Assembly: GCA_913009685.1 (NCBI GenBank)
Contig: CAJVXP010000017.1
Span: forward strand, 1-46,549
Source: an uncultured Bacteroidota bacterium
GTDB lineage: Bacteria > Bacteroidota > Bacteroidia > Bacteroidales > F082
DNA length: 46,549 nucleotides
Direction: 5' to 3'
Part shown: positions 16,745 to 19,961 of the stretch, one piece after another
Layout: the number at the start of each line of letters is the position of its first letter
Numbering within the stretch: the stretch's first letter is position 1
Program-made: the position numbers and the translations under genes
The notes under the pieces: generated by a model
Database searches by the model: none
The model's input: the letters and a program-made list of their open reading frames with translations, nothing else
Told to the model about the DNA's origin: nothing

Positions 16745-16790
16745 TTTTTAACTTTTTCCTTTTAACTTTCTCCTTTTTCCTTTTATCCTC
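16745..16790. repeat. pyrimidine-rich repeat overlapping the exosortase 3' end
   Basis: It carries the same CTTTTAAC/CTTTTTCC units as 5781-5956. Read on the minus strand it encodes the last residues of the exosortase (KGKRRKLKGKS and stop), so the basic tail of that protein comes from repeat sequence. Confidence 0.7.
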
Positions 16791-17332
16791 TCCACCCACA
16801 CAACCCACAAAGCAAAGATAACCACGTAAAAGAAAGGCCGTAATATCCACATGTGGATAAAATCCCAGTGAGCAGGCCAGTGGACTACCACTACCGAAAG
16901 GATAACAATCCGGATGATGTTATTGATATGAATTACAACAAGGCCGAGAGGAATATACCAAAGCTTTTTCCTCCAGGGTCCCGGAAAAAGAATCATCAAA
17001 ACTGTCCACTGATAAAATTGCTTTAGTCCCGAGCAGGCTCCCTCTATGGCGACATAGCTGTTCCTGGCAAAGTACAGCGTGTTATCCACCGCTTTAACAG
17101 GATAATGCAACACGTGTTCCACCAGCCAGGCCGCCGGCACAAAGACCTGATGTGCCAGAAACTGTTCCGTTTCTGAGAAAAAAGCAAATTCTTCCAGAAA
17201 ATGTTTTAGCCCGCCGCTCCACCAAAGCCAGTGGAAAAAGTAGATGATGATGGCAAAAAAAAGCACATCTACCACCGGTTGCAACTTGTGTTTCTGAATA
17301 AACAATTTAATAAAAGGATAATAAGGGCACAT
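16748..17332 (-). CDS. exosortase/archaeosortase family membrane protease-transpeptidase
   Basis: This 194-residue protein has about six membrane segments. It carries all three exosortase landmarks: EGACSGLKQF with the catalytic Cys100, HINNIIRIV with Arg141, and HWDFIHMW with His160. The family recognises a C-terminal tripartite signal (short motif, hydrophobic helix, basic tail), cleaves it and is thought to attach the protein to a lipid or glycolipid. It is short, as Bacteroidota forms (XrtF-like) tend to be. It lies convergent to the FemAB-like gene and divergent from the deacetylase, both exosortase-locus partners. The C-terminal tail is unusually basic and is encoded by a pyrimidine-rich repeat. 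Confidence 0.9.
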   Translation of the reverse strand: MCPYYPFIKLFIQKHKLQPVVDVLFFAIIIYFFHWLWWSGGLKHFLEEFAFFSETEQFLAHQVFVPAAWLVEHVLHYPVKAVDNTLYFARNSYVAIEGACSGLKQFYQWTVLMILFPGPWRKKLWYIPLGLVVIHINNIIRIVILSVVVVHWPAHWDFIHMWILRPFFYVVIFALWVVWVERIKGKRRKLKGKS

Positions 17333-17484: not shown

Positions 17485-18327
17485 GTGCATATTCTTACTT
17501 TCGATATAGAAGACTGGTTTCATACTTTTGATAAAGCTTATTACAACCGGCCTGCTCTTTGGGAAACCTTATCCACATCATTGGAAGAAGATGTAAACCA
17601 TATTTGTGAATTTTTGGATGAGAGAGACTTAAAAGCTACATTTTTCTGGTTAGGATGGGAAGGTGAAATCCATAAAAACCTTATTCGGAAAATTGCCGAA
17701 CAGGGTCATGAAATAGCAGCACACTCCTTTCTGCACCGGAAGTTGGAGTCTATGGGGCCTGAAGGTTTTCGCCAGGATACAGAAAGAGTTATCAAAACCC
17801 TTGAAGACGTAACGGGGGAGAAAATAAAATCTTACCGCGCTCCCGGCATGTTCGTTAATAGAAATACGTTGTGGGCTTTTGAAATACTGGCATCACTCGG
17901 CATCCAACAGGACAGCTCCCTGATAGCAGGTTTCAGGCTCGGAGCTGAAGTTCAGCTTATTCCGCCGGCCCCCTGCATCATAGATTATAACGGAATTCAA
18001 ATTAAAGAGTTCCCCGTGGTGGGGATTCCCCTGCTTGGGAAGTCGTTTAACTATTCGGGCAGTGGCTATTTCCGCATTTCTCCTTATCGCTGGTTGAAGA
18101 GAAATTTATTGGAGGCTGATTACAGCCTGTTGTATTTCCATCCCCGTGATTTTGACACGGAGATACATCACCGTCAGGATAACCTTTATTTGAAATTAAA
18201 ATACCGGATGGGAACCCGTGGGGCTTTGCAGAAACTGGCAAAAATCAGCGATAAAGCAGAACTTATCAGTCTTCAGGAAGCCGAAAACCGTATTTCGTGG
18301 GATGAAGTACAAAAAATAGTGTTGTGA
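17485..18327 (+). CDS. polysaccharide deacetylase (NodB-fold, DUF3473-like, exosortase-locus type)
   Basis: This 280-residue protein starts at GTG (HILTFDIEDWFHTF). Metal-site motifs of carbohydrate esterase family 4 are present: the FDIEDWF Asp pair, HEIAAHSFLHRKL (His-x4-His type) and SYRAPGMF. The C-terminal YFHPRDFD...NLYLKLKYRMGTRG matches the DUF3473-like tail of deacetylases found in XrtA EPS loci. It should remove N- or O-acetyl groups from the polymer, changing its charge. There is no signal peptide, so action on lipid-linked or cytoplasmic intermediates, or an unusual export, is implied. It is transcribed divergently from the exosortase gene. Confidence 0.9.
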   Translation: MHILTFDIEDWFHTFDKAYYNRPALWETLSTSLEEDVNHICEFLDERDLKATFFWLGWEGEIHKNLIRKIAEQGHEIAAHSFLHRKLESMGPEGFRQDTERVIKTLEDVTGEKIKSYRAPGMFVNRNTLWAFEILASLGIQQDSSLIAGFRLGAEVQLIPPAPCIIDYNGIQIKEFPVVGIPLLGKSFNYSGSGYFRISPYRWLKRNLLEADYSLLYFHPRDFDTEIHHRQDNLYLKLKYRMGTRGALQKLAKISDKAELISLQEAENRISWDEVQKIVL

Positions 18328-18448: not shown

Positions 18449-18453
18449 GGTTG

Positions 18454-18528
18454 TCGGGGTGAGAGGATTCGAACCTCCGGCCTCGTCGTCCCGAACGACG
18501 CGCGCTAACCGGGCTGCGCTACACCCCG
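18454..18528 (-). tRNA. tRNA-Pro (anticodon CGG)
   Basis: On the minus strand the cloverleaf is complete. The acceptor stem is CGGGGTG (18522-18528) with CACCCCG (18455-18461). The D arm is followed by anticodon stem CGTCG/CGACG with loop TTCGGGA (anticodon CGG), and the T arm is GGAGG-TTCGAAT-CCTCT. The discriminator is A and no 3' CCA is encoded. The terminator lies just downstream. A partial copy of its 5' half lies upstream at 18556-18686. Confidence 0.97.
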
Positions 18529-18555
18529 AAAAAAATTATTAATTAATGAAACAAA

Positions 18556-18686
18556 CCCGAATGACGCGCGCTAATCCCGAAAAACAGAAAATCTTTGATT
18601 TTCGTAGTTTTTCGAGGATCCACGATTTTGTAACGAAATTTCAAATTTCGACAAAATCGGGACCGGGCTGCGCTACATCCCGAAAA
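18556..18686 (-). pseudogene. duplicated 5' half of tRNA-Pro, split by an 88-bp insert
   Basis: Bases 18556-18574 match 18490-18508 of the tRNA at 18 of 19 positions. Bases 18663-18686 match 18509-18532 at 23 of 24. Joined, they recreate 43 contiguous bases covering the tRNA 5' half up to the anticodon loop. Between them, precisely in the D-loop region, sit 88 foreign bases (18575-18662). The copy lacks the 3' half and cannot make a tRNA. Confidence 0.9.
18575..18662. mobile_element. 88-bp double-hairpin element inserted in the tRNA-Pro copy
   Basis: The insert is symmetric. It has TCC at one end and GGA at the other, two hairpins of exactly 37 nt, and an 8-nt spacer AGGATCCA. Hairpin one (18578-18614) pairs CGAAAAAC with GTTTTTCG and GAAAATC with GATTTTC. 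Hairpin two (18623-18659) pairs CGATTTTGT with ACAAAATCG and CGAAATTT with AAATTTCG. The ends TCCCGA/TCGGGA are inverted repeats. There is no coding capacity and no clear target-site duplication. The form recalls paired REP sequences or a tiny MITE. Class unknown. Confidence 0.75.
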
Positions 18687-18968
18687 TCAGGCCGCAAAAT
18701 TAATAAACATTATCAATTGACAAAAATATTTTCGGGATTTGTTTTTCATCAAAGATGCAGCCACTTAATATCTTCTTACAATCTCCGGAGTACTGCCCGC
18801 TTCTAACAGAAAACGACCGAACTGTGTGTGTAGGGAACAATGGGATTGTTCTGTATTCCGGCAGGAAACCAGTCCCTGAGTTGCCGGAAAACAAGAATAA
18901 ATCTTATTTTTGTGGCCGTTTTCATTATGGGGTAGAAATACATATTTTCAAACAATCGCCAAACCGGT
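18687..18968. other. spacer without a recognisable gene
   Basis: A 78-codon open frame crosses this stretch but has no family resemblance or promoter and overlaps the next gene in another frame, so it is not called. No strong palindrome is seen. Confidence 0.5.
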
Positions 18969-19961
18969 ATGCAGGAAACATCCGCCATTGAGAAAAATCT
19001 TTTCAACATAAAGTCCGAAACGGATTTTAATGCTGTGGCGCTGGAGGTCTTTCGCTTTCAGTATGCCCGCAACGATATTTATCACCGGTTTGTGGAAGAG
19101 TTGGGGATTGACACGGCTGCCGTAAAAAATTACCGGAAGATTCCTTTTTTGCCCATCGAATTTTTCAAAACACACAAAGTTGTTTGCGGAGATTTTGAAC
19201 CGGAAGCTGTTTTCCGTAGCAGCGGTACCACAGGAATGACTATCAGTCATCATTTTGTAAAAAGCATCCGTCTTTACGAACAAAGTATACTTCAGGGCTT
19301 CAACTTGTTTTTTGGGAAACCGGAAAGTTATGTTTTCCTGGCGCTTTTGCCCACTTACCTGGAGCGCACCGGCTCGTCGCTGGTACACATGGCCGATCTG
19401 CTTATTCGTCTGAGCAATGATGAAAACAGCGGTTTTTACCTGCACGATTACGACAAGCTGGCGGCGGTGCTAACCGGGCTGAGGAGACAAAAGAAAAAAG
19501 TTATCCTGTTGGGAGTTACCTATGCTCTGTTGGATTTGGCAGAGCAGTTTCCCCTGGATTTTAGCGAATTAATACTTATGGAAACCGGTGGCATGAAAGG
19601 CAAACGCCGTGAGCTGGTAAGGGAAGAGCTGCATGCCACACTACAATCTGCTTTTGGCGTAGAGAATATTTTTTCGGAATACGGTATGACCGAGTTGCTG
19701 TCGCAGGCTTACTCAAAAGGCCGGGGTGTTTTTTCCACGCCACCATGGATGAAAGTGCTTATTCGCGATATAAACGACCCGCTGAGCCTGATGCCGGAAG
19801 GTAAAAGCGGAGGGATCAATGTTATCGATCTGGCCAATATCCATAGCTGTTCTTTCATTGCCACCCAGGATTTGGGCAAGCTGCACACCTCTTCGGGTTT
19901 TGAAGTGCTTGGCCGTTTCGACAACAGCGATGTGAGGGGATGTAATCTGCTTGTGGGGTGA
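18969..19961 (+). CDS. LuxE/PaaK-like acyl-protein synthetase (adenylate-forming family)
   Basis: This is a 330-residue member of the LuxE-like branch of adenylate-forming enzymes. It contains FRSSGTTGMTISHHFV (about 79-94, the AMP-binding P-loop SGTTG), METGGMKGKRRELVREEL (about 203-220), FSEYGMTELLSQAYS (about 236-250, adenine/AMP pocket) and a shortened C-terminal part. LuxE activates a fatty acid for reduction. The Bacteroidota homologues are common, often called acyl transferase, and have no settled substrate. Start is ATG at 18969. It is monocistronic, with a structured repeat downstream. Confidence 0.85.
   Translation: MQETSAIEKNLFNIKSETDFNAVALEVFRFQYARNDIYHRFVEELGIDTAAVKNYRKIPFLPIEFFKTHKVVCGDFEPEAVFRSSGTTGMTISHHFVKSIRLYEQSILQGFNLFFGKPESYVFLALLPTYLERTGSSLVHMADLLIRLSNDENSGFYLHDYDKLAAVLTGLRRQKKKVILLGVTYALLDLAEQFPLDFSELILMETGGMKGKRRELVREELHATLQSAFGVENIFSEYGMTELLSQAYSKGRGVFSTPPWMKVLIRDINDPLSLMPEGKSGGINVIDLANIHSCSFIATQDLGKLHTSSGFEVLGRFDNSDVRGCNLLVG

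Follow-up and report, generated by a model that had tools for sequence, protein, structure and literature searches.

Organization of the tRNA-Pro locus

The window, by which we mean the whole stretch of 46,549 nucleotides analyzed here from an uncultured Bacteroidota bacterium (genome G000), carries an intact tRNA-Pro gene and, 27 bases upstream of its 5′ end, a broken copy of tRNA-Pro positions 1 to 39 (Table 1). The copy is split between positions 20 and 21, and tRNA bases were neither lost nor duplicated at the split. The initial annotation had counted 43 repeated bases with 41 identities; 39 of these belong to the tRNA and differ from the intact gene at 2 positions, and the other four are flanking A's. 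When relic and tRNA were compared for exact matches, with the longest match per strand alone listed, the longest match was 16 nt, and the longest chance match on the opposite strand was 10 nt. The split tRNA copy is not a product of chance. In the Rfam search, tRNA was the one RNA family to reach the gathering threshold.

Table 1. Features of the tRNA-Pro locus and its flanks in the window
Feature	Position	Strand	Evidence
Polysaccharide deacetylase, gene flanking the other side	17485..18327	+	Pfam PF01522
Intact tRNA-Pro (anticodon CGG)	18453..18528	-	ARAGORN; Rfam RF00005, 63.9 bits
A+T-rich spacer, 27 nt, between intact tRNA-Pro and relic	18529..18555		
tRNA-Pro relic, positions 21-39	18556..18574	-	Sequence comparison with intact gene
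Hairpin 1 of insert, 44 nt	18575..18618	+	DNA fold; hairpin model, 61.4 bits; pair counts
Hairpin 2 of insert, 44 nt, mirror-image shape, other stem sequence	18619..18662	-	DNA fold; pair counts; 59 bits
tRNA-Pro relic, positions 1-20	18663..18682	-	Sequence comparison with intact gene
Ancestral tRNA-Pro leader, promoter-like, now before relic	18683..18718	-	34/36 identity to leader of the empty site in G004
LuxE-like acyl-protein synthetase, flanking landmark gene	18969..19961	+	Pfam PF04443; tblastn

We then compared leaders with that of the tRNA-Pro gene in G004, a genome of the same genus whose site is empty. The 36 bases before the broken copy matched the G004 leader at 34 positions, versus 13 of 36 for those before the intact gene. 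Since the ancestral leader precedes the broken copy and not the intact gene, the broken copy occupies the old tRNA gene start, and the start of the intact tRNA-Pro is shifted 154 bp further on. An exosortase-family ORF (PF09721; window 16748-17332, minus strand) was also observed among the polysaccharide genes adjoining the locus.

Structure and distribution of the double hairpin

The insert (18575-18662, 88 nt) is composed of TCC, 37 nt, AGGATCCA, another 37 nt, and GGA, exactly as first annotated, and it reads equally as two 44-nt hairpins, TCC...GGA each, with a one-base bulge toward the partner hairpin in the DNA fold. The precisely bounded, symmetric element proposed at the outset was thereby recovered as two mirror-symmetric hairpins, a mirror pair of the kind that characterizes REPINs and REP pairs. 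Each hairpin runs through 3 bp, a one-base bulge, 8 to 9 bp, and a further short bulge to a final 7 bp capped by a loop of three bases.

A covariance model of the hairpin half was built from the halves of the window and related halves. Run over the window, it returned the two halves (Table 1) and five other matches of at most 28.3 bits, two of which came from these same halves read on the opposite strand, the remaining three scoring at most 13.9 bits. A single structure accommodated fourteen ~44-nt halves with dissimilar stems, drawn from six genomes; 90.4% of cells were paired, and 12 of the 19 pairs were altered on both sides. The covariation score was 0.500, versus 0.177 when shuffled and at most 0.220 when slid; the rows are related, with up to two halves per element, and independent events are fewer than rows. 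Compensatory changes keep the hairpin shape, which is conserved more than sequence across genera.

Full-length relatives of the insert were found in two genomes of the same genus (G005, 90%, twice; G003, 85%), and G036, which belongs to the same order, has partial relatives; the window insert is not an isolated case. Searching 60 genomes with the half model under strict filters revealed the double hairpin in 3 of the 12 genus genomes, there only at tRNA-Pro; G000 has a single site and G005 has two. Beyond the genus, it was found on five contigs of G036, and one weak match was found in G047. The G036 double hairpin splits tRNA-Ala relics (twice) and a tRNA-Leu relic, and it also lies near tRNA-Asp. 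Two further double hairpins of this genome (L043:2590-2673 and L236:1502-1614) lie outside tRNA relics, beside TTGGCAG-like sequence resembling the D loop of tRNA-Ala.

Occupied and empty tRNA-Pro sites in sister genomes

The tRNA-Pro site was examined in the 11 other genomes of the genus. Six carry an empty tRNA-Pro(CGG) site (G001, G004, G008, G009, G010, and G011), the 260 bases upstream being free of broken copies; two are occupied (G003 and G005); two lie at contig ends (G006 and G007, whose contigs stop 7 and 4 bases upstream of tRNA-Pro); and one (G002) has no close tRNA-Pro copy. One and the same site is thus present in occupied and empty alleles. The empty sites for which the initial annotation had called do exist, and its picture of an insert that occurs only here, is shared by all relatives, and has no empty site does not describe this locus. 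The LuxE-like gene lies on the same side of tRNA-Pro in G008 (empty) as in the window and on the other side in G004.

The G005 locus runs from tRNA-Pro through broken copy A and a GIY-YIG ORF to broken copy B, with the end of the ORF reading into the tRNA sequence of copy A. One contig of G003 holds a broken copy, a GIY-YIG ORF, and the start of another copy, and on a second contig the end of the same kind of ORF runs directly into the intact tRNA. A GIY gene of the tRNA-Pro type is absent from the window and was not found elsewhere in G000, an assembly that is 87.8% complete. By eye, the window spacer resembles the one separating relic A from the intact tRNA in G005, and the window order of leader, relic, spacer, and tRNA is as expected from a G005-like state minus the stretch between relics B and A. 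The proposal that the duplication is tied to an insertion at the tRNA was borne out; as for the old integration that it was thought to record, the sister genomes show a small GIY-YIG gene and not an integrase.

The tRNA-Pro relic of G000 differs from the tRNAs of G005 and G003 by 4 and 5 mismatches, respectively, and the G004 tRNA equals the G000 tRNA here. Relic A of G005 and the G003 relic are identical to their own tRNAs, and relic B of G005 has diverged, differing from its own tRNA at 4 positions. This pattern of relics following the local gene fits a recent origin from the resident gene or gene conversion with it.

Two other features were noted in these genomes. A second locus of G000 (L045:1120-1740, contig G000:C38) holds a tRNA-Asp and a GIY-YIG gene flanked by broken tRNA-Asp copies, the copies being broken by TCTCG...CGAGA palindromes. 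Y1_Tnp (RAYT-like) genes lie ~0.25 kb (L021:1843-2400, beside copy B in G005) and ~0.9 kb (G009:C9:19631-19990) from the tRNA-Pro locus.

A single-domain GIY-YIG gene adjoins tRNA genes

The GIY-YIG protein consists of a single domain of ~85 aa, and Pfam PF01541 was matched by five of five scanned proteins. Among 32 aligned sequences, Y17, G19, R27, and E63 are invariant and Y6 is nearly so; full units therefore encode a GIY-YIG catalytic domain with conserved active-site residues. The fold was predicted confidently (model pLDDT 95), and the nearest solved relatives by both sequence and fold are UPF0213 (1zg2 and 1ywl) and SLX1. It is an attractive idea that such a domain, which has no long DNA-binding part, may recognize a folded hairpin or junction.

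With the GIY-YIG protein as the query, 26 of 60 relatives gave a match at an E value of 1e-8 or better, and the 32-protein alignment matched at least 101 of 198 genomes of the order (E 1e-8) and at least 157 of 247 genomes of the phylum (E 1e-10). The loci analyzed below are 125 from Bacteroidales, a fetched subset of the matches listed in the searches of relatives and order, with repeat fetches omitted, and 29 fetched from the matches listed in the phylum scan, all outside Bacteroidales. ARAGORN placed a tRNA within 300 bp in 93 of the 125 loci (including five with an odd '???' as the nearest tRNA call; 92 without '???' calls) and within 100 bp in 81. The tRNA lay on the strand of the GIY gene in all 93 adjoining loci. 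In control loci, which lay at chance DNA matches in G000 and its relatives (L005, holding the window tRNA, excluded), a tRNA occurred within 380 bp of base 1,500 in 1 of 32. The phylum scan gave a tRNA within 300 bp in 27 of 29 loci, all on the same strand.

A tRNA or a relic was present in 109 of the 125 loci and neither in 16; four of the latter (L062, L066, L077, and L079) are alike by eye and may represent a lineage without tRNA targets. Two PF01541 matches of G000 stand outside the 125: L046 (G000:C53, no tRNA in the 3,160-base locus), which tblastn with the tRNA-Pro GIY query missed, and L047, the third match in this genome, in a 610-aa frame. The GIY-YIG ORFs of L049, L069, L078, and L087 end in translated tRNA (e.g., ...GVAQPG and ...LVRVPFVRD), which is likely to give rise to odd C-termini in protein databases.

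Extra tRNA copies are commonly broken by palindromes

A relic piece was found in 100 of the 125 loci and an interruption in 79. Terminal inverted repeats of at least 5 bp bounded 123 of 177 relic interruptions and were absent from 54, the 177 including tandem copies that are not independent; random windows of the same lengths in the same loci had such repeats in 2.3% of 8,850 cases. Interruption by a palindrome is thus common among the extra tRNA copies.

Counting distinct combinations of locus, position, and insert with inverted repeats of at least 5 bp, we found favored break positions for individual tRNAs: 21/22 in Arg(CCT) (9 of 11), 22/23 in Arg(ACG) (3 of 4), 24/35 in Val(GAC) (4 of 5), 28/46 in Val(TAC) (9 of 17), and 25/36 in Asn (8 of 17). 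Breaks in Met were more scattered (n = 12), with three at 36/47, two at 38/49, and two at 25/43. The inserts took three recurring forms. Palindromes of 10 to 22 nt, often TCC...GGA, replace part of the anticodon arm or T loop; CCTGCC...GGCAGG or CCCGCCCG...CGGGCGGG inserts are mostly added without tRNA loss; and double hairpins of 50 to 95 nt are like that of the window. The first two forms could be assigned at 50 loci, 49 with a tRNA label, after setting aside short-inverted-repeat interruptions below 50 nt and those outside the two classes. The CCTGCC type occupied all 15 Arg loci, and the 34 non-Arg loci held 30 of the TCC...GGA type and 4 of the CCTGCC type. Seven genomes had at least two classed loci, and five of them contained both classes.

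Some loci are extended arrays. In G005, an array behind a single intact tRNA-Met (L078:1157-3481; G005:C1:2733657-2735981) contains six broken copies of this tRNA along with seven copies of the GIY-YIG gene, which recur every 356 bp and the last of which is truncated. The same genome has arrays lacking a GIY gene, one at another tRNA-Met (L209:1037-1885, seven broken copies at 110- to 111-bp spacing) and one of tRNA-Ser (L210:720-1337).

Palindrome counts were also taken genome wide in G000, G005, G226, and G208. TCCCGA..TCGGGA occurred 5, 4, 50, and 4 times, respectively (reversed-pattern control, 0, 3, 0, and 1), and TCCGCC..GGCGGA occurred 2, 34, 36, and 1 times (control, 0, 0, 0, and 2). 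Both types are commoner in G226, where a minority of the sites was inspected, and 18 of the 34 TCCGCC..GGCGGA sites in G005 lie inside three tRNA relic arrays. After these counts, a genome-wide REP was rejected. The preference for tRNA genes may be overstated, in that breaks are best recognized where an intact copy exists. Two further observations concern G226: at L215:420-580 (G226:C1), two palindromes break one copy of a non-tRNA repeat, and the 16-bp palindrome TCCGCCAGCTGGCGGA recurs roughly every 10 kb over much of G226:C1:101646-300699.

Nuclease lineages keep to a tRNA type

A tree was computed from 123 GIY domains, two of the 125 being too short, and 107 rows carried a tRNA label (16 unlabeled). 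On this tree, tRNA isotype changed 32 times, versus a mean of 70.9 and a minimum of 66 in 200 shuffles. Host family changed 75 times, versus a mean of 77.5 and a minimum of 74, and 11 of 200 shuffles needed no more changes than this; because the 107 rows carry 40 family labels, the test of family is blunt. When only the first 66 residues of the domain were kept, so that C-terminal segments that can be translated tRNA dropped out, isotype changes numbered 31 (mean, 71.0; minimum, 63) and family changes 76 (mean, 77.3; 51 of 200 shuffles as low). Palindrome class required 7 changes, versus 15.1 when shuffled (minimum, 10). Nuclease lineages keep strongly to tRNA type and weakly or not at all to host family, the pattern of target-specific lineages spreading between hosts, as read from one short domain and quick trees.

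Origin of the window element

We propose that the window probably holds a solo remnant of a small, homing-like element specific to tRNA genes, with putative cleavage activity and mobility. The full unit, as seen in the sister genomes, comprises a palindrome-split partial tRNA copy, the GIY-YIG gene, and then another partial copy or the intact tRNA. The nuclease would break DNA at its own tRNA gene or at the extruded hairpin, and repair by recombination via tRNA homology would add a unit, with one complete tRNA gene kept or rebuilt. The palindrome may tag the extra copy as nonfunctional and perhaps uncleavable. In the window, recombination between the two flanking broken copies would then have removed the nuclease gene, much as a solo LTR arises; the window state could instead predate GIY capture, or reflect a mixed population or assembly collapse. 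A wider form of the proposal, to which we give somewhat less than even credence, is that these are phylum-wide tRNA-gene elements of Bacteroidota in which a minimal SLX1-like GIY-YIG nuclease may act on DNA hairpins in a tRNA duplicate, the hairpin being the working end, each lineage homing to its own isoacceptor, and a functional copy always being kept.

Several findings count against a homing-like element: some relic arrays lack GIY genes, palindromes break a non-tRNA repeat in G226, double hairpins lie outside tRNA relics at two places in G036, 16 of 125 loci show no tRNA and no relic, and an inverted repeat of 5 bp is missing from the ends of 54 of 177 interruptions. There is also the weak host-family signal, the intact tRNA that persists beside the nuclease gene, and the build of the protein, a single domain of ~85 aa that has no long DNA-binding part.

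The main rival is a REPIN-like or paired-REP origin, in which a Y1/RAYT-type transposase moved the 88-bp insert into a neutral tRNA duplicate and the GIY-YIG gene is merely a neighbor; we consider this unlikely. The shape fits the paired REP suggested by the initial annotation, two inverted, bulged hairpins totaling 88 bp resembling the REPIN form described in PMC3116915, and Y1_Tnp ORFs do lie near copy B in G005 and tRNA-Pro in G009. The non-tRNA double hairpins of G036, beside TTGGCAG-like sequence, and the many inserts that entered without loss or duplication of tRNA bases also agree with it. Against it, G000 has one site and G005 two, rather than the many dispersed copies typical of REPINs, and the hairpin bases of the window carry no GTAG tag by eye. 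When a RAYT gene was looked for, as the initial annotation had recommended, Y1_Tnp matches occurred in 12 of 12 genus genomes, with one such ORF near copy B in G005, but their presence is not discriminating: because the double hairpin occurs in 3 of these 12, RAYT presence does not explain it. Moreover, palindrome class tracks tRNA type, with both classes in most of the multi-locus genomes (5 of 7). A minimal MITE, the other identity first suggested, was not supported; the inverted ends are present, but no tRNA base is duplicated as a target site at the window site.

Local rearrangement without mobility, by which a tandem tRNA duplication was followed by palindrome-forming mutation and slippage and a GIY-YIG gene was captured in some arrays, seems to us quite improbable. 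Relic arrays without GIY genes would be accounted for, as would the many short palindromes that replace tRNA bases instead of adding to them. Such events would hardly be expected to yield the same positions and palindrome classes for the same tRNA across genomes, GIY lineages that track tRNA type far more than host family, same-strand adjacency in 93 of 93 loci, or a 44-nt hairpin shape conserved in unlike sequences. Integrase-borne islands and prophages usually leave a partial tRNA copy beside an intact tRNA, and this general trace is what would recommend an attachment-site remnant of a classical island or prophage at tRNA-Pro. The copy here, however, is a 5′ half that is internally split and lies 27 bp from the gene; no 3′ tRNA duplicate accompanies it, no integrase domain was found by Pfam in the ten ORFs scanned between 11829 and 25082, and the sister genomes have a GIY-YIG unit instead. 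We rejected an integrase remnant as the main reading on these grounds and find it scarcely credible.

If a homing-like element is the right explanation, tiny nuclease-linked elements have a niche in tRNA genes throughout a bacterial phylum, and they spare gene function by leaving one copy intact, much as self-splicing introns do by splicing themselves out. The common small GIY-YIG family of Bacteroidota would gain a target and a partner DNA structure, and the units would offer a natural system for studying the site specificity of a one-domain nuclease. For annotators, several such ORFs end in tRNA sequence, and the surrounding tRNA relics are not random debris.

Comparison with known systems

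Rickettsia palindromic elements are likewise short palindromic inserts within genes; they have no known link with a nuclease gene or with duplicated tRNAs. The UPF0213/SLX1 branch provides the best solved relatives of the GIY-YIG protein, and SLX1 is a nuclease of branched DNA, but its chains are larger, several having been solved with SLX4, and we know of no tRNA-linked repeat unit in this branch. REPINs and BIMEs with their RAYTs share the mirror pair of hairpins, and a Y1_Tnp gene lies near one G005 copy; they differ in that the elements described here occupy one or two sites per occupied genus genome, mostly at tRNA relics, and conserve shape more than sequence across genera.

Among the matches listed in a search of an open-access library, no paper on a chromosomal unit of GIY-YIG gene, tRNA, and palindrome was found. 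SegB of phages T4 and T6 is a free-standing GIY-YIG homing endonuclease encoded beside tRNA genes; according to the excerpted account, it shows microhomology between a tRNA 5′ end and the 3′ end of the nuclease gene and drives tandem amplification, and the isotypes are varied (PMC13096335). The Bacteroidota units differ in residing on bacterial chromosomes rather than in phage genomes, in a protein of a single ~85-aa domain, in nuclease lineages that largely keep one tRNA type, and in their palindrome-broken tRNA relics, a feature that the excerpt does not mention for SegB (PMC13096335). A GIY-YIG gene adjoining tRNA genes, tandem tRNA-nuclease units, microhomology at the tRNA 5′ end, and varied isotypes are common to both, and, on the part of that account considered here, phage SegB is the nearest documented parallel that we found.
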